A DNA stretch of 64,000 nucleotides from Planctomycetota bacterium (GTDB taxonomy: Bacteria > Planctomycetota > Phycisphaerae > Phycisphaerales > SM1A02). A model generated the notes under the pieces. It did not search any database, was not told the origin of the DNA, and saw only the letters and a program-made list of their open reading frames with translations. Location of the stretch: assembly GCA_017859745.1 (NCBI GenBank), contig JAFMML010000006.1, positions 1 to 64,000 of the forward strand, in the 5' to 3' direction. Shown one piece after another: positions 45,467 to 61,956 of the stretch. The position numbers and the translations under genes are program-made. The stretch's first letter is position 1; each line of letters opens with the position of its first letter.

Positions 45467-45886
45467 ATGAGCGACATCCACTCCACGCGGGCTCCCGAGG
45501 CGGTCGGTCCCTTTCCCCACGCCAAGCGGGTCGGCGACCTGCTGTTCCTCTCGGGCATCGGCCCCCGCACCCGCGGCAGCAAGGCGATTCCGGGAGTGAC
45601 CCTCGCCCCGGACGGCTCGATCGAGTCCTACGACTTCGACGTCCAGTGCCGGGCGTGCATCGAGAACGTCCGCACGGTCATGGAGGACTCGGGGGTGCCG
45701 TTCGAGAACATCGTCGACGTGCTCTGCTTCCTGACCGACATGAAGCGGGACTTCAAGGCGTTCAACCGGATCTACGGCGAGCACTTCGCCGGCGATGGCA
45801 AGCCCAACCCGACCCGGACCACCATCGAGGTCGGAAGTCTGCCCACGCCGATCGCCGTCGAGCTGAAGGTGATCGCAAGGGTGTAG
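45467..45886 (+). CDS. RidA/YjgF/YER057c-family protein
   Basis: A 139-residue single-domain protein. RidA-family enzymes hydrolyse reactive enamine/imine intermediates. Motifs seen are VGDLLFLSGIGPRTRG, NVRTVMEDSGVPFENIVDVLCFLTD in two strands, NRIYGEHF, and the signature NPTRTTIEVGSLPTPIAVELKVIA. The Arg of PTRTT, equivalent to catalytic Arg105 of RidA, is present. It is closer to the 2-aminomuconate-deaminase/RutC-like subgroup than to RidA proper, so the substrate is open. The ATG follows a -10-like TACCCT by six bases. Confidence 0.9.
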   Translation: MSDIHSTRAPEAVGPFPHAKRVGDLLFLSGIGPRTRGSKAIPGVTLAPDGSIESYDFDVQCRACIENVRTVMEDSGVPFENIVDVLCFLTDMKRDFKAFNRIYGEHFAGDGKPNPTRTTIEVGSLPTPIAVELKVIARV

Positions 45887-46038: not shown

Positions 46039-47226
46039 GTGAGCGATCCAAGGGCAACCACCGAGTCGGATGCGGACGAGGCCACCGTTCCCGATTCCAT
46101 CCTCTCCGAGTCCCCCGGAGACGAGGACACCGCGGCCGATCCGGATGCGATGACGACACCTTCGGTCCGCGAGTCCACGCCATCCGGTCCAGCGATCGAT
46201 TCCGATCCCGGCGCCACGGGGTCGTGGGGTCGTTCGACGACCCTCGAAGCCACCGACGCGGGCATCTCCGAGAGTCAGGAGCCGTCGACAGCGGTCCCAA
46301 CGTCGCCGACTCGTCGGCCTGTGGCGTCGGGTGCCGTTCGGGATCGCATCGTCATCCTCGGCCGTCGCAACGCCGGCAAGACGATCTTCCTCGCGCGGGT
46401 CTACGAGCAGTTGTGGCGCTCGACGGACAACTTCCACATGCGGGCCCTCGACGGCAACGACCACCTCTTCTTCATGGAGACGGCACGGGTGCTGTCGGAG
46501 CGGGTGTGGCCACCGGCGACCGGTTCGAGCACCCAGGTCCATCTCGAGGTCACCCTCGAGGGACGCACCCGAAAGGTGACGAGCCTCGACTACTCGGGCG
46601 AGGTGTTCAAGCGGGCGTTCATCGACGGCTCGGTCGATCCGGGAACCATCGAACTGCTGGCAAACCTCGACCGGGCGGCCGCAGTCATTCTGCTGGTCGA
46701 TCCCGGCATCGTGCTGCACGGAACGCCTGAGCAGATCGCCGAGGACGAGTTCGGCCTGACCGCTGCGGTTCGGCGAGTGCGTCAGGGAACGGGAGGGGGC
46801 TCGATTCCCATCGCGTTGGTGCTCACCAAGCTCGACCTGCATGGTCGAGTGGTTCGAGAGTGCGGTGGTCTCGTCGGCTTCGTCAAGAACCACCTGTTTC
46901 CACTGCTTCGCGCCTTGCACCGGGTTCGCGTCTTCGGCTGCGTTGCGGTCCGAAGTCGACCCGACGCGATGGGACGGCCTCGCCCCGATCCGGCGACGCC
47001 GCCCATGGGTCTGCTCGAGCCGCTGGAGTACTGCATGAAGGCGATGCCGGAGACTCCGGCGGCGGCTCAGGTCTCCACGGCCCGGGCCGCAGCACCCTCG
47101 ACCGAGACCGCCGACGATGCCGGAGCATTCGCCCGCCTGGCACTGCCGCTGGGCATCGTGGCGGCGGCGGGGATCGCCGCAGGATTCATCATCGCCTGGG
47201 CCTTGGGCATGGTGGGAGGCACGTGA
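46039..47226 (+). CDS. Membrane-tailed TRAFAC-type GTPase
   Basis: A 395-residue protein. Residues 1-100 are acidic and Ser/Pro-rich, probably disordered. The GTPase domain has Walker A GRRNAGKT (108-115), a DxxG switch motif DYSG (184-187) and the base-recognition motif TKLD (263-266), so it should bind GTP specifically. It ends with a single membrane helix (LPLGIVAAAGIAAGFIIAWAL, about 368-390), placing the catalytic part in the cytoplasm. The GTG start follows caggggg; the long open frame upstream runs through the repeat and RidA gene and is not coding. Its stop overlaps the next ATG by one base. I relate it to the GTPases of the GAP1-associated systems described computationally for bacteria. 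Confidence 0.87.
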   Translation: MSDPRATTESDADEATVPDSILSESPGDEDTAADPDAMTTPSVRESTPSGPAIDSDPGATGSWGRSTTLEATDAGISESQEPSTAVPTSPTRRPVASGAVRDRIVILGRRNAGKTIFLARVYEQLWRSTDNFHMRALDGNDHLFFMETARVLSERVWPPATGSSTQVHLEVTLEGRTRKVTSLDYSGEVFKRAFIDGSVDPGTIELLANLDRAAAVILLVDPGIVLHGTPEQIAEDEFGLTAAVRRVRQGTGGGSIPIALVLTKLDLHGRVVRECGGLVGFVKNHLFPLLRALHRVRVFGCVAVRSRPDAMGRPRPDPATPPMGLLEPLEYCMKAMPETPAAAQVSTARAAAPSTETADDAGAFARLALPLGIVAAAGIAAGFIIAWALGMVGGT

Positions 47227-49361
47227 TGGCTCCGGTCCCTGCGGGACTCGGCGAAGCGATGGTCTCGACGCATCTCTTCGGATCGCACGAGGGCTACCGC
47301 ACCTTGGCGCGAAGCGTCGACGTCACCGACGCGGAGGATGCCGAGCTTGCGGTCTTCGGGTTCGGCCAGACGGCCGATCAGGATGTGCTCGAAGCGCTCG
47401 AGACGGCCCCGACGGCGTATGGCCGTCCGCTTGCGGGTGGCCGCGTCGCCATCACCCGCATCTTCGCCGGACCAGCCGACGAGTCGGGCCGGGCGACCCT
47501 TGAATTGAGAACGATTCTGATCTCCCCCAGCTCGATCGGCGATCTGCTCTCGACGGGCTTCGGAGGGATCCTTCATCAGCGTTCGCTCTGGAATCGATCG
47601 TCGTTCGAGAAGGGCAGCACCCTTCGGGTCGTTCCGGTGCGTGGTGCCTCCGAACGTTCACCCGCCGCGGAAGAGGCCTTTGCGGCGTGGTCCGAGGCGG
47701 TGATCGATCCGACGCCCATGCGGGGCGGCGGCACCAGCGACGAACCACCGTTGCTTCCGGTCTCGGATCGACCGATGGTCCTGTTGGAGCCGGAGCCGGA
47801 AGGCTCGACCGCGCTCGCGGCTCTGGCGGCCTCGTTGACGCCGACCGATCTCTCGAGTCTCCGCTGGGGGGTGCGGCTGCTCTCGACGGGGGTGCCGGTC
47901 GACGTGGCGACGTTGTCTCCGTCGGGCCGCATCGCCTCGGGACGATCGGTCGTGCGTCATCGGATGGGATCCAGCGACCATGGCATCGCCTCCGAGGCGC
48001 TCGCGGAGACCCGAGGATCCGACCGTCTTCCCAGCCTTGGTTCCGTGGCGCGTCGTGCCGTGGTCGAGTCGTCGCCCGCCGCACCGGGATTGGCCGCACT
48101 CCGCACGACGGTTCTTGCCGCTGCGCCGATCGTGCTGGTCGTCCTCGTCATCCTGATCGTCGCGAACGGTTGGCGACGTGACGACTCGATCGAGGTGGCG
48201 TCGGCGAGCGACATCGAAGCGTCGTCGTTGCCGCTCCGGGGATCCCGGTCCGATTCCGCCGAAAGGGCGGGGACCAAGGCGCCCGACCAGAGCACGCCTC
48301 CGCCGACGCCAACGGTGACGACGGCCCCTGGTCCTTCGGCGAAGGCGTATCGCGATCGATCCACACCGAGTTCGCGGCCTTCCACATCGAATCCCAACGA
48401 GAACCCGGCATCGACCGCCACGCCGTCACGATCGGGTGATTCGCAGGATGGAATCGACGGCGACTTGGACGGCGAGTCGATGGCACGGGATCCGTCGAAC
48501 GACCCGCCTGCCGCCGGGGTCGCGCCCGACGCCGTGTCCGGAGATTCCGAGGCAGAACCCGCGAACGATCCCGCAACCGACCCATCGAGTCCCACGAGCG
48601 ACGACGCGGTCGAAGGCGTCTCCGACGCGAAGGACGCCGTGGAATCGGAGGCGTCGCCGATTCCGCCATCGGCCGCCGCCGGTTCCGCCGCGTCTTCCTC
48701 CTCCGCGACGATGGTGGAGGACGATGCGGCCGGCGATCTCGTCGACGATCCGAAGACTGGACTTGCCGACGACGATCCCTGCGTGATCTGCGGCGCCGAT
48801 CTCGGGAGATTGAGAGATCAGCTCGCACGGGCGAGGGCGTCGGATGCGCTTGGCGATCGCAAGGCGTTCGATGCGGCGATGGCCTCGGTGATCGCGTTGC
48901 TTCGGTCGATCGGGCTCGAGTCGGTCGAGGACGAGCATCGAGCCGAGGTCCTCAAGCGCCTTCGCGGCAACCAGCGTCCCGATCCGACTCGATTCGCGGA
49001 GGACTGGCGGACTCTTCGACTGCTCCTGTGTCGCCTGGAGGCCTGGCACGCGGTGCTCGACGAACTCGATGCGATCGCGGAGCGTTTCCCGAGCGGCACG
49101 CCGTACCGTCGAGAACTCGCCGGCCTGCGCCGCGACGCCCTCTGGGTGCGAGGCTCGGAACGAATCGAACCGGCGATGATCCGGGTTCGAATCGGTCGTC
49201 TGAAGCAGACGCTTCGGCAGCAGCTCGAGAACGCCGTGGTCCTGCAGTCGGCGGAGATCTCTGCATGGCTGGATCTGGAGCAGGACGTGGGTTCGCAGGC
49301 GTGGTCGGAAGGTCGCTTCCGACCACCAGCGGCGCTGGCCGTCGTGGAGTCGGACTCGTGA
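47226..49361 (+). CDS. GAP1-like (GTPase-associated) membrane protein
   Basis: A 711-residue protein. The first ~270 residues (starting VSTHLFGSHEGYRTLARS) resemble the N-terminal domain of GTPase-associated protein 1 families: a repeated beta/alpha domain without catalytic motif. One membrane helix (APIVLVVLVILIVANGW, about 297-315) is followed by a 200-residue Ser/Pro/Asp-rich linker. A short C-P-x2-C-like element (DDDPCVICGADL) leads into a C-terminal helical domain (about 525-711). The ATG overlaps the GTPase stop (TGATG), implying a stoichiometric partner. The family assignment is from memory of sequence style and needs an HMM search. Confidence 0.75.
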   Translation: MAPVPAGLGEAMVSTHLFGSHEGYRTLARSVDVTDAEDAELAVFGFGQTADQDVLEALETAPTAYGRPLAGGRVAITRIFAGPADESGRATLELRTILISPSSIGDLLSTGFGGILHQRSLWNRSSFEKGSTLRVVPVRGASERSPAAEEAFAAWSEAVIDPTPMRGGGTSDEPPLLPVSDRPMVLLEPEPEGSTALAALAASLTPTDLSSLRWGVRLLSTGVPVDVATLSPSGRIASGRSVVRHRMGSSDHGIASEALAETRGSDRLPSLGSVARRAVVESSPAAPGLAALRTTVLAAAPIVLVVLVILIVANGWRRDDSIEVASASDIEASSLPLRGSRSDSAERAGTKAPDQSTPPPTPTVTTAPGPSAKAYRDRSTPSSRPSTSNPNENPASTATPSRSGDSQDGIDGDLDGESMARDPSNDPPAAGVAPDAVSGDSEAEPANDPATDPSSPTSDDAVEGVSDAKDAVESEASPIPPSAAAGSAASSSSATMVEDDAAGDLVDDPKTGLADDDPCVICGADLGRLRDQLARARASDALGDRKAFDAAMASVIALLRSIGLESVEDEHRAEVLKRLRGNQRPDPTRFAEDWRTLRLLLCRLEAWHAVLDELDAIAERFPSGTPYRRELAGLRRDALWVRGSERIEPAMIRVRIGRLKQTLRQQLENAVVLQSAEISAWLDLEQDVGSQAWSEGRFRPPAALAVVESDS

Positions 49362-52153
49362 GGACGCCCGTCGTGCGTGATCTCGGACTCGCATGCTCGA
49401 TCGTCTGCGGCATCGCCCTCGTGGGCTGCCGAAGCGATCCCCATCCCTCGGAACCGGAAGAGGCCGAGATCGTGGCGGCCCGCATCGATCGGGTCCGGAT
49501 CGATCCGACCGCGCGGCCCGATCCCGACCAACGCGACGACGCCGATGAACCCTCCGAACTCGAATCGGCGGCGATCGAAGCGGCGCGTCTCGAGGCGATG
49601 CGCGTGAAGCTCGAGACGTCGCCGAGCGGGTCTTCGACGGCGACCGGCGGGTCCGAGGATGCCAGCGGCAGCGGAAGCGGCGACGACGACGGGGGACGTG
49701 CCAGCGCCGAGAGCGAATCAGATCGAGAGGCAGGCGGCGACGGACGGCAAGGCGACGGTTCGTCGGCGGAAGGTGCCGGCGACGGCGGCGAACAGGGATC
49801 GAGCACGGGATCCGATGCCGAATCGAGCGGCGGCAACGCCGGGACTTCGGCAGGATCGGCTGGCGATTCCTCCGGCGAATCTTCCGGCAACGGATCGGGA
49901 TCGCCGTCGAATCCAGCTTCGACCTCCTCCTCCAGCGCGTCTCCCACCGTATCTCCCACCGTATCCCCCACCGTATCCCCAGCTTCGAGCGGTTCGACAG
50001 GCTCCGGAACAAGCGGCGCCGGAGGACGGAATGCCGGTTCGTCGCCCGGTGACGGGGGCGATGCGTCGGACGAGGCGGCATCGGGAGAGGCCGGCAACGG
50101 CTCCGGACAAGCCACTCGATCGACCGGAGTCCCGACGACGGCGGGTGGCGCCGGCGTGGGGAGAGGAACCGGCGAGCTCGCTTCGGTGCGAGATCGAAGC
50201 GACGAGTTCGTCGAGGGCGATGGTGGTACGTCCGGAGATGCGGCGGGAGGCTCGGGCGGAGATCCGGGCTTCATCGAACCCGAGGCGATGACCGGAAGCG
50301 GCGATCGACTGCCCGGCGGCGGCGCCTCGACGGGCGGTGGTTCGGGCGAATCGACCGAGCGCGGCGACGGCGTCGGTGGAGGTGGTTCCGAGGCAGGAGG
50401 CGGACGGGAGGGCGGCGCTGCGGGCGACGAGGATGCACCGGCGTCGACCACGATCGGCACGCTGGAGTTGGAGACGACCGATGGCGGCTCCGCATCGGAC
50501 GAGGCGGAGGCGGACGACTTCCTCGATGCGCCCGTCGTGCTCGATGCGCCGTCGAGCGCCGATGGCGACACGTCGGAGGCACCTGACGCGCAGCGTCCGG
50601 AGACGTCGCGTGTCGACGAGGAGCCCTCGAGCGCCGATCTCGAGACGACCACCGCTTCGAACCCAGCCGACGGGGCCGACCTGGGACTCGATGGTGTCCG
50701 TGCCGAGACGGATCTCGAGGGCGTGGTGGGGACGCCGGGCCGCGATTCGCCGGAGTCCTCGATGCTGGATGCCGAAGTCGTGCCCGAAGACCGACACCAG
50801 ACGGGGATCGAGGACGCCTCGGCCGACGGTGGCGTCGTGCGATCCGACGAGTCGAACGCCGACTCCGGCGCGGCCGTGCACTCCGATCGGAGACGCGGTT
50901 CGAGACCGAGCGCGGCCCCGGAGCGAGGCGGCGACGGAATCGTCGAAGGCGTCGAGGCGGGATCGGGACCAGGATCGGGACCAGGATCGGGACCAGGTTC
51001 GGGCGAAAGGTCGGTCGAAACGGGCGCATCGTCCGAATCGGTTCCGCTTCGAGATCGACTGTCGGTGCCCGAAGTCGATCTTGCGCCGATCGAGACCTCG
51101 CTCGACCGTAGAGACCATCGTTCGGACGAGGCGCCCCGGGACGACCCTGCATGGCTGCTGCGGGGCGCGTGGGAGCAGATCGACGCCGATCCGAACGGCC
51201 CCGACTTCGCGCCGGGAGGCTACGAGCGCAACATCGTCGCCATCGATCCGCGCGAAGGCACCTTGGAGGTCTACCGGGTGTATCGCGGCGGGATCGTCGT
51301 CTCGGGTGCGTTTCGCGCGGAGCTTCTTCCCGAGGGCACGTTGCTTCTCTCCGCCGACGATCGGTTGCCGCACCGGTTTCCCAGGGAGGCCATTCGACTC
51401 GGTGGCGCCGTGGTCGTCGAGCCACCCATCGAACCGGTGGATCTCGATCGACGGTGGAGCTTCGCCGACGGGGTCTTCGAGATCGAGGGCAGGCGCTTCG
51501 CGAGAATCGACCGCGATGCGTTCGAGCGGGTCACCCGTGGCGCGACGACCTCGCCGCCTCGGGAGCAGGCCGCGCTCGATGGCGGGACCGCTCCGGTCGC
51601 CGACGTCGGGAACGACTCGGACGGCGTCGCCGATCCCGCCGCCTCGGTCGACTTCTTCGGCACCAGCATCGTGGGCCGGCACATCTGCTACGTCGTGGAC
51701 ATCTCCGGATCGATGGCCGGTCCCCGACTTGCCGCGGCACTCGACGAACTCGCTCGCAGCATTCGAGCCCTGCCGCCGGACCGATCGTTCTACGTGTTGT
51801 TCTTCAGCGGGGGCAAGCTGGTGCTGGAGGATCGCTGGCAGCGGGCGACGAGCGGTCGCAAGCGGGCGTTCACCTCGCGATTCGTGGACATCGAGGCGCA
51901 GGGCGGCACCGAGCCTCGGCAGGCGATCGAGCACGCCTTCACGAAGCTCGTTCCGGTTCCGGACGAGATCCACTTCATGACCGACGGGCAGATCCCGACC
52001 GACACGCCGCGTCTGCTGCTCGATCTGAACGGTGGTCGAATCCGCACCGTCGTCCACACCTACGCCTTCGGCGACTCGAGCGGCGGCGCGGTGCTCGAAC
52101 GGATCGCCGCCGAGCACGGTGGCCAGTACCGGTTCGTGCCCGATCGTCCCTGA
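49358..52153 (+). CDS. vWA-domain lipoprotein with very long disordered linker
   Basis: A 931-residue protein. The GTG start overlaps the previous stop (GTGA). The signal ends in a lipobox LVGC with Cys24. Residues about 30-585 are almost entirely Gly, Ser, Asp, Glu and Ala, including two stretches from 12-base tandem repeats. A small beta domain (about 590-720, GGYERNIVAIDPREGTLEVY) precedes a C-terminal vWA domain with MIDAS D781-x-S-x-S785 (VVDISGSMAG) and a late MTDGQIPTD metal-site Asp. It would hang in the periplasm on a flexible tether and bind a partner through a metal ion. It is the last gene of the plus operon and faces the convergent ExbBD operon. Confidence 0.85.
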   Translation: MRTPVVRDLGLACSIVCGIALVGCRSDPHPSEPEEAEIVAARIDRVRIDPTARPDPDQRDDADEPSELESAAIEAARLEAMRVKLETSPSGSSTATGGSEDASGSGSGDDDGGRASAESESDREAGGDGRQGDGSSAEGAGDGGEQGSSTGSDAESSGGNAGTSAGSAGDSSGESSGNGSGSPSNPASTSSSSASPTVSPTVSPTVSPASSGSTGSGTSGAGGRNAGSSPGDGGDASDEAASGEAGNGSGQATRSTGVPTTAGGAGVGRGTGELASVRDRSDEFVEGDGGTSGDAAGGSGGDPGFIEPEAMTGSGDRLPGGGASTGGGSGESTERGDGVGGGGSEAGGGREGGAAGDEDAPASTTIGTLELETTDGGSASDEAEADDFLDAPVVLDAPSSADGDTSEAPDAQRPETSRVDEEPSSADLETTTASNPADGADLGLDGVRAETDLEGVVGTPGRDSPESSMLDAEVVPEDRHQTGIEDASADGGVVRSDESNADSGAAVHSDRRRGSRPSAAPERGGDGIVEGVEAGSGPGSGPGSGPGSGERSVETGASSESVPLRDRLSVPEVDLAPIETSLDRRDHRSDEAPRDDPAWLLRGAWEQIDADPNGPDFAPGGYERNIVAIDPREGTLEVYRVYRGGIVVSGAFRAELLPEGTLLLSADDRLPHRFPREAIRLGGAVVVEPPIEPVDLDRRWSFADGVFEIEGRRFARIDRDAFERVTRGATTSPPREQAALDGGTAPVADVGNDSDGVADPAASVDFFGTSIVGRHICYVVDISGSMAGPRLAAALDELARSIRALPPDRSFYVLFFSGGKLVLEDRWQRATSGRKRAFTSRFVDIEAQGGTEPRQAIEHAFTKLVPVPDEIHFMTDGQIPTDTPRLLLDLNGGRIRTVVHTYAFGDSSGGAVLERIAAEHGGQYRFVPDRP
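49941..49980 (+). repeat. 12-bp tandem repeat (three copies) in the vWA lipoprotein gene
   Basis: ctcccaccgtat at 49941, 49953 and (one change) 49965, then a partial copy. It encodes the repeated SPTV in the disordered linker and keeps frame, so copy number can change without breaking the gene. Confidence 0.75.
50961..50996 (+). repeat. 12-bp tandem repeat (three exact copies) in the vWA lipoprotein gene
   Basis: gatcgggaccag occurs at 50961, 50973 and 50985, coding for GPGS units of the linker just before the structured part. Length variation would again be in frame. Confidence 0.75.
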
Positions 52154-52171
52154 GGCCTCGCCGCCCGATCT

Positions 52172-53146
52172 TCACTGGGCGGTGGTCCGTCCCTCGAGGA
52201 TGGTGTCCCGGTAGATCCCTCCAGACTCGATCTCGACGGGTGCGACGTCGTAGAGGAAACCCCGCTTCGCGATGGCGGCGCGGAACGCCGTGAAGGCGTC
52301 GAAGGAGTCCGGATCGCACTTGATCGAGATCACGTGGCGCATGGGGTCGAGCATCGACATGGCGCGACGCCACTCGCGGTCGCGCTCGAGATCGCTCCAG
52401 TCATCCCCATCGGGATCGCGGAGATCGACGCCGCCCCCGATGCGGAGGCGGATCGCCCGATCGATGTGCTGACCACCCGCCCTCCAGCAGTAGTGGACGA
52501 TCGCCTCGCTGGACTCCGGCACGACGGCCTGCTCGTTCCAGGTGCACCAGCTGTCGCATGGATGCGCGAGTCGGTCCGACCAGTCGTTGATCAGATGGGC
52601 CCGGTCCCGCCACAGGACGACCTGCACCGGAAGGCGGCCGACCAGCTCGCGACGTCGCGGCGTGCGGACGGAGATCTCCTTGGTCTCGCGAATTCGGGTC
52701 GTCGCGTCCTCGAGCGCCGCGATCTCGGCCTCGATCTCGGGCAGGCTCTCCTCGATCGACTGCGCCTCGGTGCGCTCCTCGTCGACGGCCTCGCGCAGAC
52801 TTGCAAGCAGCATCGCCCGACGCTGCACCTCCCGTTCCGCCTCCTCGAGCATCGCGCGGGCCTCGGCAAGAGCCGCTTCGTCGGCTGCGATCTCCGATTC
52901 GTCGATCGAGGCGATCGCCCTCTCCAGCGCCGAACGACGCCGCTCCGCGAGGACACGGTCGTCCACGGCGAACTCCTCGTCGGGCGGTGCGATCTCCGGT
53001 TCGATGGCGCTGCCCCGGGTGGATACGAGAAGCGCCACGAGCATCGCCACGAAGATGAACAGCCCGAACATGTTGCAGATCGTGTCCAGCAGCAGGTCCA
53101 GGCCGTCCCCGTCCTCGCCGGCGCCGCGGACTCCTCGGGCGCTCAT
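52172..53146 (-). CDS. ExbD-like stator protein, type with DTICNMFG helix
   Basis: A 324-residue protein with one N-terminal membrane helix containing an acidic residue, LLLDTICNMFGLFIFVAMLV (about 17-37), the likely proton-binding Asp. A long charged coiled coil (about 60-160) and a C-terminal alpha/beta domain (about 170-324) follow. The layout is that of ExbD/TolR/MotB stators. The ATG at 53146 overlaps the stop of the first ExbD-like gene; the longer frame upstream lies within that gene. Its stop is 18 bases from the convergent vWA lipoprotein gene. Confidence 0.8.
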   Translation of the reverse strand: MSARGVRGAGEDGDGLDLLLDTICNMFGLFIFVAMLVALLVSTRGSAIEPEIAPPDEEFAVDDRVLAERRRSALERAIASIDESEIAADEAALAEARAMLEEAEREVQRRAMLLASLREAVDEERTEAQSIEESLPEIEAEIAALEDATTRIRETKEISVRTPRRRELVGRLPVQVVLWRDRAHLINDWSDRLAHPCDSWCTWNEQAVVPESSEAIVHYCWRAGGQHIDRAIRLRIGGGVDLRDPDGDDWSDLERDREWRRAMSMLDPMRHVISIKCDPDSFDAFTAFRAAIAKRGFLYDVAPVEIESGGIYRDTILEGRTTAQ

Positions 53147-53979
53147 GGCGAGGACTCCTCGATGGGTTTGGGTCTGGCGGCCGGAAATCGATCCGACGTC
53201 CATCGGTCCTCGGCCAGCAGGTCGACGCCCACGGCGACGTCGCGGTAGCGATCGTCCTCGCGCAGCAGGCGAAGCAGCGCCGACCAGGTCGCGAGTCCCG
53301 ACGGCTTGAGGACCACCAGAAGCGTCCGCTCCCGCCAGTCCTCCCGCGCCGTGAAGAGCTCGAGCAGGTTCGACGCGGCGCGCTCCGGCGTCATGTCGGA
53401 GAGCGCGACCGACGCTTCGCTCTCCTGATCGAACGAGAGCACCACGCGGTCCGAGGAGATCTCCGCCACCGTCGGCGGATGCGGCGACTCGTCGGACACG
53501 AGGTAGACGATCCGCTGGCGACGCCGCACTTCGTCGAGGTCCTCGGCGAGGCGGTCGCGACGGCGGGCGAGCGCCGCGGCGATCGCGTCCTCGGCGTCGA
53601 GTTCGCGATCCCGAAGGGTCTCGACGAGCGCGGCATCGGCGGTCTCGATCTCCCGCCGCGCGAGCGCAAGTTCCGCATCGAGGGCGATCAGGCGTCGTCG
53701 GGTCCGGGCGAGTTCGGCGATGGGATCCTCGCCCGCGCGGGCCTCGAGTTCGGCCAGCCTCGCTTCGAGGCGCGAGACCTCGAGTTCGATCTCGGAGAGT
53801 TCCTCGGTCCGCAAGGCGTCGGGTTCGGGGGTCTCGGTGGAGGCGGACGCATCGGCGATGGAGGTGCCCACCTGCAGGATCAGGACCAGCGTCAGCAGCA
53901 GCGTCAGGCCGATGGTGCAGACCATCACGTCCTGAAACGAGAAGAAGGAGACAGGGGCGCCGTGTCCGCGTCGTCGCAT
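53143..53979 (-). CDS. ExbD-like stator protein, type with FSFQD helix
   Basis: A 278-residue protein whose single membrane helix reads SFFSFQDVMVCTIGLTLLLT (about 10-30), with an Asp at the proton-pathway position. A coiled coil (about 60-145, LEARLAELEARAGEDP) leads to a periplasmic alpha/beta domain. This FSFQD type and the DTICN type usually come as a pair in planctomycetes. The ATG lies 13 bases after the ExbB-like stop, and its stop overlaps the next gene (ATGA). Confidence 0.8.
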   Translation of the reverse strand: MRRRGHGAPVSFFSFQDVMVCTIGLTLLLTLVLILQVGTSIADASASTETPEPDALRTEELSEIELEVSRLEARLAELEARAGEDPIAELARTRRRLIALDAELALARREIETADAALVETLRDRELDAEDAIAAALARRRDRLAEDLDEVRRRQRIVYLVSDESPHPPTVAEISSDRVVLSFDQESEASVALSDMTPERAASNLLELFTAREDWRERTLLVVLKPSGLATWSALLRLLREDDRYRDVAVGVDLLAEDRWTSDRFPAARPKPIEESSP

Positions 53980-53992
53980 CTGAGAGACCGGT

Positions 53993-54898
53993 TCAGGCCT
54001 GCGGTGCAGAGATCAGTCGGACCCGCGCGACGACCTCGTTGGTGCACGCCTCCCGCACCTCGTCGAGGAAGGTCTCGTCCTCGCGACGCACGAAGACCTG
54101 AAGCAGATGGATGAGCAGGGCCGCCACCAGGCCCTCGCCGGTGGTGACGAACGCGGTGTCGAGTCCACCGATGACGTCGGTGAGTCCTGCGGTGATCTCC
54201 TCCAGCGGCATGCCGGGTTCCGACAGCACCGTGCCGAACCGTCCGATCGCCGCGGTGAGTCCGACGATCGTTCCGATGAATCCGAGGACCGGAATCGCCC
54301 AGACGAATCCCCGCACCAGGGTGTAGCCGCCATCGACGACGATCTCGTCCTGTTCGGCGCGGCTCGAGAGCATCTCGTCGATGTCGCCCACGCGTCCGAC
54401 GTTGCGAACGCTCTTGAGCGCTCGAAGCACCCGTTGCAGATACATGAACCGCTCCGGTTCGTCGACGCTGGTCTCGATCGCCTCGATGACCCGCTCGGCG
54501 GTTGCGCTCGACAGGGTGAAGGCCGCGTCCGTCGGCAGGAACCGAAGACGCAGCGCCCGACGTTGCGCGGAGATCTTCAGACGCTTCAGCAGGAGCATCG
54601 ACGTCGCCCATGCGGCGAGGAACGCCATGGGGATGGGAATGCCGGAGAAGCCGGTCAGATAGGTCCACGCGACGTCGAATCCCGGACGCTCTCGCAGTGG
54701 AGCGAGTCCGCCGTAGACCACCGCCAGCATCAGCAGCGCAAGCAGCAGGCTCGACGCGGCGCTGGGATTGGTGAAGCGTCCCGTCGGCAGCCCGAGGCGC
54801 CGTTCGGGATCGGCACGTCCGAAGGCGAGGACCGGAGCCGCGGCGGCACTTCGGGTCCGTCGGGACTCTCGCGTCATGGGTGTCGCGTCATCGGCCAT
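53993..54898 (-). CDS. MotA/TolQ/ExbB-type proton channel protein
   Basis: A 301-residue inner-membrane protein with four helices: about 44-68, 90-110, and the diagnostic pair GFVWAIPVLGFIGTIVGLT (about 195-215) and GLDTAFVTTGEGLVAALLIHL (about 245-268). These last two match the MotA/TolQ/ExbB proton-channel domain, including the conserved Pro and Thr residues. It should pair with the two ExbD-like proteins just downstream to use the proton gradient for mechanical work. A gap of 30 bases separates it from the 997-residue protein gene upstream. Confidence 0.9.
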   Translation of the reverse strand: MADDATPMTRESRRTRSAAAAPVLAFGRADPERRLGLPTGRFTNPSAASSLLLALLMLAVVYGGLAPLRERPGFDVAWTYLTGFSGIPIPMAFLAAWATSMLLLKRLKISAQRRALRLRFLPTDAAFTLSSATAERVIEAIETSVDEPERFMYLQRVLRALKSVRNVGRVGDIDEMLSSRAEQDEIVVDGGYTLVRGFVWAIPVLGFIGTIVGLTAAIGRFGTVLSEPGMPLEEITAGLTDVIGGLDTAFVTTGEGLVAALLIHLLQVFVRREDETFLDEVREACTNEVVARVRLISAPQA

Positions 54899-54928
54899 GG
54901 GGCGTTCCGTGGAGGGTCGGGGGCGGAC

Positions 54929-57922
54929 TCATCGGACGAAGACCAGATGCGGGGCGGGTGGCGGCTCCGGACCGAGGAAGACCGCGACGCCGTCGTCGAT
55001 CTCGACGGGCACGAACGCCGCGCCGCCGCCGCGGCCTTCGACGACGACCGAGCCCTCGATCCGACCTCGAGCTCCGACCGCTCCCCCGGCGCCGAGGCCG
55101 ACGAATCTCCACGCGTCGGCCGACGCGTCCGGTTCGACGACTCCGGCGACCGACCGGGCTTGAAGCGCGTCTCGGAGATTCGTCCATGCGGCGAGCGATC
55201 GGTCCTGCGACGCGGCGGCGTCGGGCATCGAAGACAGCGCCAGACGTGCAAGACGTCGCGGCGCCGCCAGCGCTTCACGACCCCGAGGCGAGTCCGCGGC
55301 CCAGTCGGCGGGCGTGGTCGGCGGCGTCCGACGATCGAGTTCGTCGAGCCAGAGCTTCGATGGGCGCTGCGACGCGTCGACACCCGTGATGGGGAGGCGA
55401 GCGAGCACGCGATGGATCGCCTCGAGAAACGCCAACTGCAGCATCGGGTCCGCCTCCTCCGCGGCTGCGGCCGCCGCGGCGAGACCGAGCAGCTCGCCAC
55501 GGACTCGGCTTCCCGGAGCGTTCTCGATCCGGGGCAGCCACGAGTCCAGCAGGGTCGCCGGCATCGTGCGTTCGACGCCGCCGGCGGCCGGCGACGAGAC
55601 GTCGGTGCGAGGCAGCAGGCGGCCCGCGGGCACCACGAGATCCCCGGACTGGGACAACGCGTTGTCGAACAAGCGTTCGCCACCCGCCTTGCGGTACACG
55701 AAGCCGCCGTTGGCCAGCGGCACCCGAAGCAGCTCGTCGAAACCGGTGGCGCGAAGTTCCGCCGCGACGATTCCGGCGGGGTCGTCCGGTCCGCCGGGAT
55801 CGGTCCGAAGGGCGGCGATCGAATCGGCGAGGGTCGCGAGCTCCTCGGCGGCCGACGCGTAGGGCGATCGTGGATGAAGCGAGAGGTGCTCGGCGAGGAT
55901 CGCCCGAAGGGTGCGAGCCGCGGGGACGTCGGCGGGATGCCATGGGTCGTCGAGCGGTGTCGTGGCGAGGATCGACCGGCTGGCGGTCCGTCGCCAGTGG
56001 GCGACCGCTTCGGCGAGTTCCGCCGCGGCGAGGCCGTCCTCGAAGTCGATCAATCGCCCCCGGGCAGCGAGCACGTCGCCATGCTCGTCGACGAAGGTTC
56101 GATAGCGCTCCAGGAAGATCCGCTCGTCCGGCGAGCGGGGCAGTTCGCGAAGTCGGCGATCGAACGACTCCAGCGATTCGCCGCGACGTGTCGCGGCGGC
56201 GAGGCGCCGCTCGAGACGCTCTCGAAGGGATCGGGCGGCCTCGAGCTCGGTCGGTCCGGCGGCGGGATCGATCGAGATCGACGCGGCGTCCGCGGCGAGC
56301 GCCGCCAGCGCCGCGCGCTCGGCGACGATCTCGTCGGGGCCGCTCTCGGGTCCGGTGGTCGCAAGTGCGGCGAACGCCGACTCGATCTCGAGAAGGTTCC
56401 CTCGGAGTTGCGCCGCGGCGCGCCTGGAGATCGCGTCGATGCGGGCCGAGATCTCGGATCGAGGTCCGGCGAGGCGTGGTTCGTCGGCGTCGCCTGCCGC
56501 GTCCGCGATCGCCTGCAGGCGCCCGAGTTCGGCGAGTCGCGTCTCGCGTTCGGGATCGTCGGCGCGATCGGACTCGAGACCGCTCGCGATCTCGATCAGC
56601 GCCGAGTCGAGGCGTCGGGATCGCTCCTTCGAATCGGCGATGGCGTTGCGCGCATTCGCCTCGATCTCGAGGAATCGCAAGCGGACGTCTCCGCTCCAGA
56701 AGGCCTCGGATCCGCCCTCGAGAGCGAGCTCCGCCAGCAGCGCCTCGGCACGTTCGTACTCGGCGCGATCGACGCGCCTCGCGACCTCCTCGATCGACTC
56801 CATCGATCGTCGATCGCGATCGATGCGCCAGGCGACGTAGGCGGCGCCGGAGATCGTCGCCAGCACCAGCGCGCCGGTCACGGCGAATCGTCGTCGACGA
56901 CGGGTGCGTCCGGCCGCGTCTGCGCGAAGTTCGAGGGACTCGAGTCGAGTGGAGAGCCGGACCGGCAACGCGCCACCGACCTCGTCGAGGCGTCGGCGGC
57001 ATGCTCGGAGCTCCTCGAGCGTCGAGCCGGCGTCGAGCAGGCGTTCGAGTTCCGCGATCGTCTCCGCCGCCCGGCGATCGGAGGCTTCGGCCTCGCGATG
57101 GGTGGCGAGCCATCGGAACGCGCTCTCGGCGGCTTCGACGGTCGAGGCTCCGACGGCGCCGCCGCCGGTGCCGTCGGGCGAGGTCAGGCTCCGCCACTCC
57201 GGCTCGATCGCAGCGACCTCGGAGGCATCCATGGCTGCAAAGGCGCGATGGAGCCTCGACGCCAGATCCTCGGCGAGCCCCGCGATGCGCCGCCGCCTCA
57301 GGACTTCGCGGGTGTCCCGAAGCGTTGCGACGACTCGATCGGGAAGATCGCGGCCCCAGTTCCTTCTCGCGATGCGGCGGTGAAGCGCATCAAGCGCCTC
57401 GGCATCCTCGCGCGCGGCGGCCTGCTGGACGTCGCGTTCGAGTTCCGAGACGGCCAGACGCTCGAGCGCCTCGGCATCCGCGGACCAGCCGGGATGGACG
57501 CGATGACGTCGACGAATCGCGTCGATCGCATCGAGGCGATCGTCGGCGGAGGCTCGGGAGAGGTTCGACCGACGATGGGTCGCCAGCAGATCCTCGATCG
57601 AGGCCACGTCGGCGTAGGCCACGTCGAGTCGATCCAGGCGACGTCGATCCAGAGCGCCGGGAAGACCGGTCGCGTCGAGCGTGATGCGAGCGATGGCGTC
57701 GTCGACGGCACGACCTCGCCGCACGAGGTTGCCGGCGTCCTCGGAGTAGGCCACCGCTTCCACGAAGAATCCGTCGTCGATCCAGCGCACCGCCTCGCGC
57801 AACGCGTCGTCGATTCGGGCGTGCTCCGCGGCCAGACGTTCCCCGAGCGCCGCGAGGCGGCTCGGATCTCCGCCCGCCGCTCGGATCTCCTCGACGAGTT
57901 CGAGATCGAACGGAGCACTCAT
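54929..57922 (-). CDS. Large helical membrane protein of the GAP1/ExbBD operon
   Basis: A 997-residue protein with a single membrane helix in the middle (FAVTGALVLATISGAAYVAW, about residues 358-378), flanked on both sides by long charged helical arrays (ALREAVRWIDDGFFVEAV; AELALEGGSEAFWS). No enzymatic motif and no named domain recognised. The C-terminal 130 residues contain short beta-like strands (EGSVVVEGRGGGAAFVPVEI). The ATG overlaps the stop of the GAP1-like gene (ATGA), which fixes the start. It is probably a transmembrane scaffold linking the cytoplasmic GAP1-like protein and the periplasm. Confidence 0.78.
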   Translation of the reverse strand: MSAPFDLELVEEIRAAGGDPSRLAALGERLAAEHARIDDALREAVRWIDDGFFVEAVAYSEDAGNLVRRGRAVDDAIARITLDATGLPGALDRRRLDRLDVAYADVASIEDLLATHRRSNLSRASADDRLDAIDAIRRRHRVHPGWSADAEALERLAVSELERDVQQAAAREDAEALDALHRRIARRNWGRDLPDRVVATLRDTREVLRRRRIAGLAEDLASRLHRAFAAMDASEVAAIEPEWRSLTSPDGTGGGAVGASTVEAAESAFRWLATHREAEASDRRAAETIAELERLLDAGSTLEELRACRRRLDEVGGALPVRLSTRLESLELRADAAGRTRRRRRFAVTGALVLATISGAAYVAWRIDRDRRSMESIEEVARRVDRAEYERAEALLAELALEGGSEAFWSGDVRLRFLEIEANARNAIADSKERSRRLDSALIEIASGLESDRADDPERETRLAELGRLQAIADAAGDADEPRLAGPRSEISARIDAISRRAAAQLRGNLLEIESAFAALATTGPESGPDEIVAERAALAALAADAASISIDPAAGPTELEAARSLRERLERRLAAATRRGESLESFDRRLRELPRSPDERIFLERYRTFVDEHGDVLAARGRLIDFEDGLAAAELAEAVAHWRRTASRSILATTPLDDPWHPADVPAARTLRAILAEHLSLHPRSPYASAAEELATLADSIAALRTDPGGPDDPAGIVAAELRATGFDELLRVPLANGGFVYRKAGGERLFDNALSQSGDLVVPAGRLLPRTDVSSPAAGGVERTMPATLLDSWLPRIENAPGSRVRGELLGLAAAAAAAEEADPMLQLAFLEAIHRVLARLPITGVDASQRPSKLWLDELDRRTPPTTPADWAADSPRGREALAAPRRLARLALSSMPDAAASQDRSLAAWTNLRDALQARSVAGVVEPDASADAWRFVGLGAGGAVGARGRIEGSVVVEGRGGGAAFVPVEIDDGVAVFLGPEPPPAPHLVFVR

Positions 57923-58929
57923 GGCGTCGCCCCCGTCGGATCCTCGAAGGCCAGCGAGAACGCGAACAAGGCCAGGGCCAGCACGATCGCCGCCGCGGCC
58001 AGAACCACCATCCACCGCCCGCGATCGGACACCTCAGGCTCGAGTCGGACCTCGATCGGCTCGGTCCAGATCCCGCTCGGCTGGACCTTTTCGATCTCGA
58101 TCGATCCGAGCGGGACCTCGCGCCGGGCGCGCGTGATCGAGATCGTCGCACCGCCCGCGCGGGCCGCGTCGCTCTCGGCGCCTTCGGGGGTCGTCGGGGA
58201 TGTCCGACCTCGGCGCAGATCGAGCAGCGCCACGCCGCCGGGCATCGGCTTCTCCGCGAGAGCCAGCGATCGTTCGTCGAGCAGCACGAGGCGAAGACCT
58301 TCGTCGCAGCGCCGCAGGCGATCGGCGAAGGTGAGACGCGCACGCTCCTCCGGGGGAAGCAGCCTCAACAGATCCGCCGCGAGGGTGGCGGTGTCGGCGG
58401 TCCCTTCGAGGAGTACGACGAGCGGCTCGCCGCCGAGCTCGCGGATCCTCAGGATCGCCTCGCCGGCCCACCCGGAGTCGCCGGTCGCCCGATGCCAGTT
58501 CGAGGCCGCGGTCGTGGGACGCTCGTCGGCCGCCGGCAGGGTCGGTGGCGCGTCGCGGACTTCGGGTGCACCGTCGTACTCGCGCTGCGGCCGCCACGAC
58601 GAGACGGTCTCGCCGAGGTCGATCCGTTCGAGATCGAGTTCGTCCAGTACGAGATGGTGCGAGATGCGACGAGTCGTTCCGGGTGCGGTCGGGTCGGTCG
58701 ACGCCAGGGGTCTGGTCGCGGTGAGGATCGTCCAGACGCCGTCGGCCCGCTCGAAGCGGCGCATCGCGATGGTGCCTCGATCGTCCTCGGGAAGACGGTG
58801 ACCCGAGCAGGCCACGGCGAGGCGTTCGATCGGCCGGGGCAGGCCCGCGGTTCGAACCACCGACACGAATCCGGGACCGTCTCCATCGAGTCCGCGAGCC
58901 GACCAGGCGTGGATCAACTCGAAGCTCAC
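57919..58929 (-). CDS. GAP1-like protein with C-terminal membrane helix
   Basis: A 336-residue protein that starts FELIHAWSARGLDGDGPGF and continues VVRTAGLPRPIERLAVACSG and ISHHLVLDELDL. These segments fit the N-terminal domain pattern of GTPase-associated protein 1 (an initial Y/H-T/A-S-x-R-GL, then a FCTVA-like strand and FAHHLVL). A second alpha/beta region follows (residues ~165-270), then a membrane helix near 306-328 (VVLAAAAIVLALALFAFSLAF). The GTG start overlaps the zinc-ribbon stop (GTGA). It is a second GAP1-like protein, beside the one in the convergent operon. Family name is from memory. Confidence 0.75.
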   Translation of the reverse strand: MSFELIHAWSARGLDGDGPGFVSVVRTAGLPRPIERLAVACSGHRLPEDDRGTIAMRRFERADGVWTILTATRPLASTDPTAPGTTRRISHHLVLDELDLERIDLGETVSSWRPQREYDGAPEVRDAPPTLPAADERPTTAASNWHRATGDSGWAGEAILRIRELGGEPLVVLLEGTADTATLAADLLRLLPPEERARLTFADRLRRCDEGLRLVLLDERSLALAEKPMPGGVALLDLRRGRTSPTTPEGAESDAARAGGATISITRARREVPLGSIEIEKVQPSGIWTEPIEVRLEPEVSDRGRWMVVLAAAAIVLALALFAFSLAFEDPTGATP

Positions 58930-59198
58930 GAGGTCGTCATCCCGTCGAGTGCGGCGATCTCGAGTCGACAGGCGCGGCATGCCAGGCGACGGCAGGCGAC
59001 ACCGCTGGGATCGATGGGTCGGCCCGAGACGTCGAAGCGAGATGGCTGGAAGCGAAGCGACTCGCCGGCGCCGAGGATCGGATCGGGAGGAAGGCGGGAA
59101 CCCTCGGCGATCGCGAGGACCTTCGCTCGATCGACCACGGCGCCGCAGTGCGGGCAGCGGTCGGGGATCCCGGGTTCGGCGTTGGAGGAGTCGGTCAT
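58926..59198 (-). CDS. Small zinc-ribbon protein
   Basis: A 90-residue protein with two Cys pairs, CPHC near residue 15 and CRAC near 77, spaced to form a zinc ribbon around a basic middle region. It is the first gene of the minus operon. The ATG is chosen because the frame upstream has no start near and codes Arg-rich nonsense. Its stop overlaps the GAP1-like GTG. It could be an adaptor or nucleic-acid sensor; no function is recognised. Confidence 0.7.
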   Translation of the reverse strand: MTDSSNAEPGIPDRCPHCGAVVDRAKVLAIAEGSRLPPDPILGAGESLRFQPSRFDVSGRPIDPSGVACRRLACRACRLEIAALDGMTTS

Positions 59199-59314: not shown

Positions 59315-61849
59315 TCACTCCGGCACGAGGCGCAGGGGAACCGCGGGATCGTTCGCGTCGAGGGCCGGGAGCAGCGGCTCGGGATCGCCGAACCGCCACG
59401 CCTCGTGACGGTCGCGGTAGTGCATCGTTCCCGGCACGCCGGACTGGCCGCCCGGGGTCTGGAGAATCGCCGTCGCCTCGCGGCCGGGGCCGACGACGAG
59501 ACGGGCGCTGGCACCGAAGCCTCGAGCCGCCACACGGACCGCGTCGGGATGTCCGGCCTGCGGATGGGCGGGCACGTCGTACCCGCGGGAGAGGAAGGGC
59601 ATCGCTCTCGACATCGGATGCTGCATCGACAGTTCGTTCCGCTCGCCCCAGGTCGGGCAGGCGCCGGGGCCTTCGACGAGTCGAAGGGAATCGAGGGTCG
59701 CCACCCGCACGAGCGTCGCGAGGATGAATCGGTCCCACGACCGGAACGGGGGCGGCAGAAGGTGGAAGGGCCGCGCCTCCAGCAGGCGCAGCCATGGTTC
59801 GTCGGATGCCACCCGAAAGCGCTCGTCGGGACGCTCGCCGCATCGCCCCGCGGCCTCGTCGAGGATCGCCGAGAGCAGCGCCTGCGCGAACGCGTTGCGG
59901 ACCTCGTTCAGCACCACCGGTCCCCGTTCGTCCTCGTCGGCTCGCCCGTTCCAGAACTCGCAGATCTCCCGCAGGCTCGCAAGAGGCCCCTCGACGTCGG
60001 GCGGAAGGTGATCGAGGACGAGATCACGCCACGGTTCAAGCGCCGGCACACCGGTGTCGAGCTGCATCGCAAGCAGCGTCGACTCGTCGATCGGTCCCTG
60101 CCCATCGGTCTCGTAGGCGAGCAGCTCTCGAATGCGATGGGCCCGCGTCGGTTCGGCCCAGTGGCGGCCGAGGCGATCGGCGTCGGCAAGGGGCATCGGC
60201 CGGGCGTTTGCGGTGAACAGCACGCCCGAGGGCGGGTCCACGACGCGGGGTCGCATGGACTCGTCGAGACGCGTTGGAAATGCGCCGCCTCCTGCGGCGA
60301 GCGATCGCGCGGTGCGTCCGTCGGCGCCGCCGCGATCGGGCAGCAGGCCGGTGACGGTCCAGCCGATGCGACCGTTTGCATCCGCGACGAGGGCGTTCTG
60401 CGGTGGACCGTGCCAGCGGGCGAGGATCGAAAGCGCCTCGTCGAGGTCGGTCGCCTCGTCGAGTTCGAGCAGCGCGAGGTTCGTGGCGTCGGGATCGTCG
60501 ATGGTCGCCACCTTGACCAGCGGCGCACCGAGATGGCTCGTCGCCGAGACCGGTCCCCATCGGGTCGTGCGCACCACGAGTTCGCGCGGCTCGCCGCCGC
60601 GGACCTCGATCGACTCGACCCGTTCGCCGAAGACCTCGAGGCCTTCGGGGGTTCGATAGCGATCGGCGTTGCCGGGATCGACCTCGATCTCGATCCAGTC
60701 CTCGAAGTCGCCGGTCAGGTTGGTGAAGCCCCATGCGACGCGGCCGTTGGTGCCGATGATCACGCCGGGCATGCCGGGCAGCGACAGTCCCGCGACCTGC
60801 GCGTCCGGCCAACGCAACGCGATTCGATACCAGAGCGTCGGCATCGAGAGGCCCAGGTGCGGATCGTTGGCGAGGATCGCGCGTCCGTCGGCGGTGTGGA
60901 CGCCCGCCACTGCGAAGGCGTTGCTTCCGGGTGTCGGCGCCGACTTCGTGAAGGTCGCGTCGAGCGCGAAGGACCCGTGGAGTTCCGCCGCGTCGGCGCC
61001 GCGCCCGGGTCCACGCGGCCTGCGCCGCGGACCACGCTCCCGCGGGCCGTTCAGTTCGAACACGGCAGGTCCCGGAATCGGCGCGGCGCGATCCCGTTCG
61101 GCACCTTCCTCGACCAGCAGCGCATCGAATCGGGAGACCGGGCACAGCAGGAACTCGAACATCTCCTCGCCAAGACACTCCCGCCAGGCGCTCCAACCGA
61201 GTTCGCGTCCGCGGTTGGAGGCCAGCATCTCGTGCATCGAGAGCGCCGTCAGCACGCTGTCCTCGGGCCGCCACGGCGAGGGTGGCCATCCTGCGAGGGC
61301 GTACTCGGGCGGCATGTCGATCGACGCGATCGCGGCGTTGACGCCGTCGCTGTAGCGGCGAAGCAGTCGGCGATCCTCCTCCGGCAGGCGGTCGAGGATT
61401 CGACGCGCCAGATCCCGACGCGCGTGCACCCGCGCGGAGAGATCGCGATCGACGACGAATGGCCCGAGCAACGCCGCAAGTTCGCCGGCGGCGTTTCGGC
61501 GCATGAGGTCCATCTGGAAGAGCCGGTCGCGACCGTGGACGAAGCCCTCGGCGGCGAACGCGTCGAGACGGCTGCGGGCCGCGATCTCGGGCACGCCGAG
61601 CGGATCGATCCTCACCTCGACCGGCGCGCCGAGCGAGGCGAGGGCGATCGGCTCGTTGGCGAGGGCGGTCTCCGGCCCGGCCACCGCGGCGACGGTGCCC
61701 GACAAGGCGAGGACGCCCGCAGCGAGGCGTCGTCCGGCGCCACGTCCCCGATCTCGTGCCGGTGCGGCGAGCGGATCGGGCCGAGCGATGGAGGCTGGTT
61801 CGCCGAGCGCGCCGATCGGCGATCGGCGGCGGGATTCGATCGCATTCAT
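59315..61849 (-). CDS. Penicillin-acylase-family N-terminal-nucleophile hydrolase
   Basis: An 844-residue precursor. A signal-like segment lies at about 38-62. The alpha part runs to residue 308, where the self-cleavage site GSNAFAVAG leaves Ser309 as the new N-terminal nucleophile of the beta chain. The beta chain has ILANDPHLGLSMP, MPGVIIGTNGRVAWGFTN and FTNLTGDFEDWIEIE, all family landmarks. Such enzymes hydrolyse amide bonds of beta-lactams, acyl-homoserine lactones or related acylated compounds; the substrate here is not determined. The ATG follows TACGCT by six bases, another leaderless-type start. It is divergent from the FG-GAP gene. Confidence 0.92.
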   Translation of the reverse strand: MNAIESRRRSPIGALGEPASIARPDPLAAPARDRGRGAGRRLAAGVLALSGTVAAVAGPETALANEPIALASLGAPVEVRIDPLGVPEIAARSRLDAFAAEGFVHGRDRLFQMDLMRRNAAGELAALLGPFVVDRDLSARVHARRDLARRILDRLPEEDRRLLRRYSDGVNAAIASIDMPPEYALAGWPPSPWRPEDSVLTALSMHEMLASNRGRELGWSAWRECLGEEMFEFLLCPVSRFDALLVEEGAERDRAAPIPGPAVFELNGPRERGPRRRPRGPGRGADAAELHGSFALDATFTKSAPTPGSNAFAVAGVHTADGRAILANDPHLGLSMPTLWYRIALRWPDAQVAGLSLPGMPGVIIGTNGRVAWGFTNLTGDFEDWIEIEVDPGNADRYRTPEGLEVFGERVESIEVRGGEPRELVVRTTRWGPVSATSHLGAPLVKVATIDDPDATNLALLELDEATDLDEALSILARWHGPPQNALVADANGRIGWTVTGLLPDRGGADGRTARSLAAGGGAFPTRLDESMRPRVVDPPSGVLFTANARPMPLADADRLGRHWAEPTRAHRIRELLAYETDGQGPIDESTLLAMQLDTGVPALEPWRDLVLDHLPPDVEGPLASLREICEFWNGRADEDERGPVVLNEVRNAFAQALLSAILDEAAGRCGERPDERFRVASDEPWLRLLEARPFHLLPPPFRSWDRFILATLVRVATLDSLRLVEGPGACPTWGERNELSMQHPMSRAMPFLSRGYDVPAHPQAGHPDAVRVAARGFGASARLVVGPGREATAILQTPGGQSGVPGTMHYRDRHEAWRFGDPEPLLPALDANDPAVPLRLVPE

Positions 61850-61855
61850 GCCCGA

Positions 61856-61861
61856 AGCGTA
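61856..61861 (-). promoter_or_regulatory. Candidate leaderless -10 element for the acylase gene
   Basis: TACGCT on the minus strand ends six bases before the ATG at 61849; no Shine-Dalgarno sequence between. Confidence 0.4.
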
Positions 61862-61956
61862 CGAGGAACGCGTCGGTCGATTCGGCCCACGAACCTTTTG
61901 CGGATTCCCCGCGTATCCCATGTCCACGGCAACACGTTCTGGACCACACTTTCCGC

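Follow-up and report, generated by a model that had tools for sequence, protein, structure and literature searches.

Why should a GTPase and GAP1-like proteins be encoded beside a proton-driven motor? The question is raised by nine genes at positions 46039-59198 of a 64,000-nucleotide stretch of DNA from a Planctomycetota bacterium of the Phycisphaerales (SM1A02; contig JAFMML010000006.1, positions 1 to 64,000 of the forward strand), referred to here as the window. An earlier note on this DNA had described two convergent operons combining a GTPase, two GAP1-like proteins, a vWA lipoprotein and an ExbB channel with two ExbD-like stators, and had suggested that GTP hydrolysis gates a complex spanning the envelope. 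The motor genes and the DO-GTPase/GAP1 genes are in fact one conserved gene set. The - strand operon (module B) is a self-sufficient, ancient core that normally comes with its own GTPase, while the + strand module A (GTPase 1, GAPa and often the vWA gene) is a lineage-specific add-on, which adjoins the core in the Phycisphaerales lineage but in others is found elsewhere in the genome. The conserved synteny indicates a functional link between GTPase/GAP1 proteins and motor, and on balance we lean toward seeing the set as a GTPase-switched, proton-driven machine that transmits force across the envelope.

The nine genes and the core operon

The genes form two convergent operons of overlapping genes whose stop codons lie 18 bases apart (52154-52171), just as the earlier note had it. 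The one change is the start of ExbD2, which alignment of homologues moves from 53203 to 53146, giving a protein of 324 aa whose gene overlaps the ExbD1 stop.

46039..47226, + strand: GTPase 1, DO-GTPase2 family (Pfam PF19993, E 1.2e-10, over the cut-off)
47226..49361, + strand: GAPa, GAP1-like, with a GAP1-N2-like domain, a membrane helix (295-313), a disordered stretch and a helical C-terminus
49358..52153, + strand: vWA lipoprotein (PF13768, 1.3e-11), with lipobox ALVGC and MIDAS motif DISGS
52172..53146, - strand: ExbD2, stator-like, with a membrane helix bearing the invariant Asp, a coiled coil and a putative ExbD-like periplasmic domain
53143..53979, - strand: ExbD1, the other stator-like subunit, a homologue of ExbD2
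53993..54898, - strand: ExbB/TolQ-type proton channel subunit (PF01618, 1.4e-7, over the cut-off)
54929..57922, - strand: P997 (997 aa), with TPR-like helical repeats, one membrane helix, a periplasmic helical region and a C-terminal beta domain
57919..58929, - strand: GAPb, assigned by family to GAP1-N2 and GAP1-M, with a C-terminal membrane helix (308-326)
58926..59198, - strand: ZnR, zinc-ribbon protein of 90 aa, corresponding to the N-terminal part of a second DO-GTPase without its G domain

On the + strand, GTPase 1 and GAPa overlap by 1 base and GAPa and the vWA gene by 4 bases. The DNA is G+C-rich, and antisense frames stay open for more than 1000 codons across the region; since these long frames stem from the high G+C, the length of an open reading frame is no proof of a gene, and position-specific G+C separates sense from antisense frames poorly here. 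The nine reading frames are nevertheless real, because their orthologues, many of them 30-77% identical, keep the same gene order in other genomes.

The searches covered the same genus and family, by GTPase and then by ExbB and ExbD2, as well as named genomes, by the ExbB profile (289 relatives, 80 loci kept), and every locus was scanned with a profile for each of the window proteins. The module B order ZnR(-GTPase), GAP1, P997, ExbB, ExbD1, ExbD2 recurs in Phycisphaerales, Planctomycetia, Verrucomicrobiales and Victivallales, and module B is carried by an isolate, Botrimarina colliarenosi (Planctomycetia; locus L110). Among the 80 loci, 38 have at least 8 kb upstream of ExbB: P997 and GAPb are present in all of them (38/38), and the ZnR/GTPase gene in 36, GAPb beginning near the locus edge in the other two. 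Both ExbDs are found in 63 of the 66 loci with 2.5 kb downstream. Of 376 good planctomycete genomes, 67 carry the core, as counted by an ExbD2 match at E<=1e-10. Core clusters also appear on single contigs of metagenome-assembled genomes labelled Nitrospiraceae (L107), Syntrophus (L123) and Desulfamplus (L135). Their sequences nest in the ExbB tree among those of the Planctomycetes-Verrucomicrobia-Chlamydiae (PVC) group, and their presence on these contigs may reflect transfer or misbinning.

The earlier note had taken the nine genes as a single unit, and had counted separation of the operons in most relatives as evidence against its proposal. A single nine-gene unit is rejected, since module A is separable. 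It adjoins module B in the genus of the window, in marine Phycisphaerales and in some lake planctomycetes, and the two are adjacent in at least 16 loci whose arrangements differ. It is missing near most core loci, and in genomes G029 and G017 it lies elsewhere in the genome, on other contigs than module B. Separation of this kind counts in part against the proposal of the note. Orthologues of GTPase 1 occur in 9 of 61 relatives. With short coiled-coil matches left out, 7 of these 61 have both modules, 2 the GTPase only, 7 ExbD2 only and 45 neither, a co-occurrence with a Fisher p of 2e-4 in which kinship is not corrected for.

Several clusters depart from the usual layout. In G019 (L026:8596-11608), two tandem module-A GTPases and GAPa are followed by a complete core that has a ZnR-GTPase of its own, which brings three DO-GTPases together. 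In G014 (L022:11903-15877), a GTPase-GAPa pair accompanies a divergent ExbD-like gene in a genome with no ExbB of the core family; this may be a module without its motor. In G022 (L025:17386-19167), a DO-GTPase of the module-A type is fused to a C-terminal trypsin/HtrA-like protease domain, and a protease gene similar to this domain lies near the core in L090. When the Protein Data Bank (PDB) was searched with the GTPase profile, the matches listed were HtrA-type proteases, a consequence of a single fused member in the profile.

An extra protein is encoded in 19 core loci, mainly of Planctomycetia, and has one or two GYF_2 domains where scanned. In the window, an open reading frame at 12118-13776 (- strand) is ~30% identical over ~300 residues to proteins adjoining the core in other planctomycetes; of these, the one from L113 was scanned and combines GYF with a squalene-cyclase/pectate-lyase-like part. 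The immediate flanks of the cluster are genes for a ComEC-type competence protein (42355-45228), a RidA/L-PSP protein (45467-45886) and a penicillin amidase (59315-61921), the last of which flanks the cluster in genome G002 too.

GTPases, GAP1 proteins and the zinc ribbon

The complete G1, G3 and G4 motifs first read in GTPase 1 are there (GRRNAGKT, DYSGEV and TKLD), as is its C-terminal membrane helix (residues 367-385). The GAP1-like proteins are best judged by family. In the window, GAPa reaches 13.7 bits for GAP1-N2, and GAPb 17.8 bits for GAP1-M and 15.7 bits for GAP1-N2, all below the Pfam cut-offs. Across the families, GAP1-N2 is matched by 12 of 19 GAPa members (best 1.5e-6) and by 31 of 34 GAPb members (best 4.7e-29), and GAP1-M by 22 of 34 GAPb members (best 1.6e-16). 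The earlier note would have given up its proposal had no GAP1 family been matched; at the family level, sequence profiles confirm the GAP1 assignment, and by the same kind of comparison the set belongs with the DO-GTPase and GAP1-N2 plus GAP1-M proteins.

Such proteins are known from the DO-GTPase/GAP1-N2 systems that have been described as conflict systems (PMC7159879; eLife 2020). These systems share with our set the DO-GTPase2, GAP1-N2 and GAP1-M domains, N-terminal zinc ribbons and membrane helices, and the GYF protein of the 19 core loci fits the GYF pair that they have in planctomycetes. They have variable effectors, whereas the ExbB, ExbD and TPR-like partners are constant here. None of the nine window proteins has an FNIII match, and because this FNIII-repeat component was not found, the cluster is a relative of the GAP1-N2-type systems and not a standard member.

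The zinc ribbon had been listed as an independent part. It is instead the N-terminal part of a second DO-GTPase, because it aligns with full-length ZnR-GTPases and belongs to a short class without G motifs; a stand-alone zinc-ribbon regulator is rejected on this alignment. In most loci the ZnR gene encodes 373-534 aa and continues into a P-loop GTPase, and all the full-length proteins have a GxPxxGK[ST]-type Walker A motif and DNAGE. Pfam DO-GTPase2 is matched by 20 of 28 sampled members of the family. PADLOC mad8 also matched 4 of 28 ZnR-GTPases (2.2e-6), which we take as shared P-loop similarity. In 12 loci, that of the window included, the ZnR proteins are short (84-241 aa) and have neither Walker A nor a G3 motif. 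This absence of the G domain is associated with an adjacent second module: module A stands beside module B in all ten short-ZnR loci with enough flank, and the contigs of the other two end first. The simplest story, whose order of events we infer, is that the neighboring GTPase took over the switch role from the ZnR-GTPase. In the ExbB tree, where deep branches are weak and one outgroup fell inside, the short-ZnR loci lie in two places (the genus of the window and marine Phycisphaerales), hinting at two separate losses of the G domain.

The motor and its possible outward reach

The ExbB plus two-ExbD motor proposed earlier is supported. The MotA_ExbB domain (PF01618) of ExbB is found in Botrimarina (3.7e-12) as well as in the window, and of the three Thr positions of the protein, those in the two pore helices are invariant (83/83). 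The Asp at the start of the membrane helix is likewise invariant in ExbD1 (75/75) and in ExbD2 (73/73). We take these Thr and Asp positions to correspond to the proton-path residues of ExbB/ExbD. Compared as profiles, ExbD1 and ExbD2 are homologous (probability 99.4, E 5.6e-22). A search of the PDB with the ExbB profile gave no match.

The AlphaFold2 model of P997 (pLDDT 86) has a single membrane helix with helical repeats on both sides and, at the C-terminus, a small beta domain. The helix (346-364) has an Arg-rich flank on its N side, which goes with predicted TPR-like repeats in the cytoplasm and a predicted helical region of ~600 residues in the periplasm. In the model, residues 109-205 resemble the TPR of BamD (Z 7.9, ~98 residues).

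The vWA protein of the window is, as first read, a periplasmic lipoprotein; a Gly/Ser/Asp-rich linker of ~530 residues leads to its C-terminal vWA domain, and beyond the lipobox no other membrane helix was found. In the lineage of the window, the vWA proteins are lipoproteins with 400-1000 residues between lipobox and vWA domain and, in most, an intact MIDAS. Those of the Planctomycetia loci have a strong membrane helix and a linker of 120-180 residues. In E. coli, the Lol rule sends lipoproteins with a residue other than Asp after the lipid Cys to the outer membrane. Wherever the lipobox of the window lineage is readable, the residue after the Cys is not Asp; the rule would place these proteins in the outer membrane, if this rule of E. 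coli holds in planctomycetes, which it may not.

Half of this assembly has been described. A set of TPR, TolQ, two TolR and vWA genes in PVC bacteria was proposed as a force transducer acting like TolA/TonB (PMC12204202; Mol Biol Evol 2025, Fig 4a). Our set has the same kinds of genes in the same order (TPR-type, TolQ-like, two different TolR-like, vWA) and the same PVC distribution, P997 being called TPR from its partial BamD match alone. The vWA proteins differ: in the published set they are tethered to the inner membrane and have an SHLS/His helix, whereas the window has a lipoprotein whose linker is very long, and our tethered relatives have no clear SHLS helix. The motor half (2025) and the GTPase/GAP1 half (2020) were predicted separately, and each paper, as searched, is silent on the other half: there is no GTPase in the former, whereas one is present here, and no ExbD, MotA, TolQ, TolR or proton in the latter (PMC12204202; PMC7159879). 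The earlier view of the locus as uncharacterised accordingly stands for the combination of GTPase, GAP1 and vWA with the motor, and falls for the TPR, TolQ, two-TolR and vWA half.

What the proposed machine might do

We infer that the gene products form one complex, powered by protons and controlled by GTP, whose vWA part contacts a target at the surface, cell wall or outer membrane. ExbB and the two ExbDs would be an ion-driven motor in the inner membrane. P997 would link cytoplasm, motor and periplasm, and together with the vWA protein would carry force or movement outward. A membrane-anchored DO-GTPase with its GAP1 partner beside the motor would be the switch, its GTP state engaging or assembling the motor. 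The ancestral switch would be the ZnR-DO-GTPase, encoded just before GAPb. In the lineage of the window, the zinc ribbon would be kept as a docking part, and the second GTPase-GAP1 pair, membrane-anchored and encoded with the vWA lipoprotein, probably supplies the switch.

Control of such a motor by a GTPase has a precedent, because the effectors of MglA in Myxococcus include the motor subunit AglR and GltJ (PMC12288465). The Agl-Glt machine has a single ExbB-type subunit and a pair of the ExbD type (PMC3169522), and CglB is a vWA adhesin of the gliding machinery (PMC13104615). Gliding or adhesion is a plausible output for our set too, and it might in particular be a motor for gliding or surface motility with a vWA adhesin, the counterpart of Agl-Glt in planctomycetes. 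This would be one specific output of the force machine, not its opposite, and we hold it possible, if rather doubtful. The kinds of parts are the same: a GTPase with a GAP-type partner, ExbB with two ExbDs and a vWA lipoprotein, along with a zinc ribbon and, in the 19 core loci, a GYF-domain protein. The GTPase is of another family, however, and its proposed partner is GAP1 where Myxococcus has the Roadblock protein MglB. MglB/Roadblock was found in none of 21 genomes (relatives including the host), control genomes being positive, and canonical MglAB gliding is rejected on this count. No Glt protein was identified in the set, none having been searched for. On our best reading, Agl-Glt is the closest working analogue, and the window set would work like it without being it.

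A conflict system, anti-phage or other, has been proposed for DO-GTPase/GAP1 proteins (PMC7159879). The GTPase and GAP1 would then sense invasion, with the ExbB/ExbD channel as effector, through Zorya-like depolarization or as a nuclease-activating motor. The patchy distribution (67 of 376 genomes) would suit this, as would the weak match of ZorA profiles to ExbB (4e-4; 15.4 of 700 bits), and Zorya ZorAB is likewise a MotA/ExbB-type motor outside flagella. No partner of the ZorB, ZorC, ZorD or ZorE type was found, however; with nothing beyond the weak ZorA similarity, Zorya is rejected. Eight of the nine window proteins have no PADLOC match beyond coiled-coil noise, the set yielded no toxic domain, nuclease or other, and its components are constant over phyla, unlike variable effectors. 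Marine Phycisphaerales loci have common core-metabolism neighbors, read by eye as IMP dehydrogenase and succinate dehydrogenase, and the penicillin amidase flank is common to G000 and G002, both of which speak against mobile islands. We consider a conflict system unlikely.

To much the same degree, we would not expect a Tol/Ton-type transducer for outer-membrane upkeep or uptake, in which the GTPase tunes expression or assembly and gates nothing. The proposal that the PVC motor-vWA set works like TolA/TonB (PMC12204202) is in its favor, but GAP1 is present just as regularly as the motor genes (38/38), beyond what an accessory would lead one to expect. The core is absent from most planctomycetes, which argues against a housekeeping role, and the host has further, canonical ExbB/ExbD sets. 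That the two operons are unrelated and lie side by side by chance is very improbable. The separate contigs of module A in G017 and G029, and the lack of a nearby module A at most core loci, would fit such a chance, but the adjacency of the modules in differing arrangements, the genome-level co-occurrence and the G-domain absence seen only beside module A (10/10 testable loci) all speak against it.

Some observations weigh against the GTPase-switched force machine itself. The core occurs without module A in some genomes, and the GTPase without the core in two. Neither ExbD, in the window or in distant relatives, matches the Pfam ExbD family (PF02472), and profile matches to true ExbDs are weak, the best (E 0.001) being that of the ExbD2 C-terminus; the Pfam miss is in line with the frequent fall of ExbD/TolR (B subunits) below detection thresholds (PMC12505986). 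For the predicted structure of ExbD2 residues 179-335, counted from the former start at 53203, the best PDB match is 8pek, an ExbD periplasmic domain, at a middling Z of 6.4 (86 residues aligned at rmsd 3.3, chain of 98), a match between model and structure that is weak alone and would fit the context. P997 has no clear structural relative over its full length, Foldseek giving no match under 0.001 and only generic helical repeats. The vWA lipoprotein of the window has no TolA/TonB-like membrane helix with which to bind the motor side, which leaves the route of the force unclear and also counts against a Tol/Ton-type role.

More tentatively, PVC bacteria may have in this set a separate class of machine alongside Tol/Ton, flagellar stators and Agl-Glt, with a vWA adhesin moved by a five-to-two motor and a DO-GTPase/GAP1 pair as the direct switch of that motor. 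The lineage of the window would then be a natural swap of the GTPase switch that keeps the old zinc-ribbon docking piece.

We know of no mechanism for DO-GTPase/GAP1 systems, widely predicted as they are, and to our knowledge neither a controller nor a function has been reported for the TolQ/TolR/vWA motors of PVC bacteria. As one conserved gene set, each of these predicted halves gains its missing partner. The core is present in isolates such as Botrimarina colliarenosi, and the natural variants, with a zinc ribbon alone beside a second GTPase, are ready-made controls. The set thus offers a testable case of a GTP state gating a proton motor outside Myxococcus, in a machine that could span the whole envelope.

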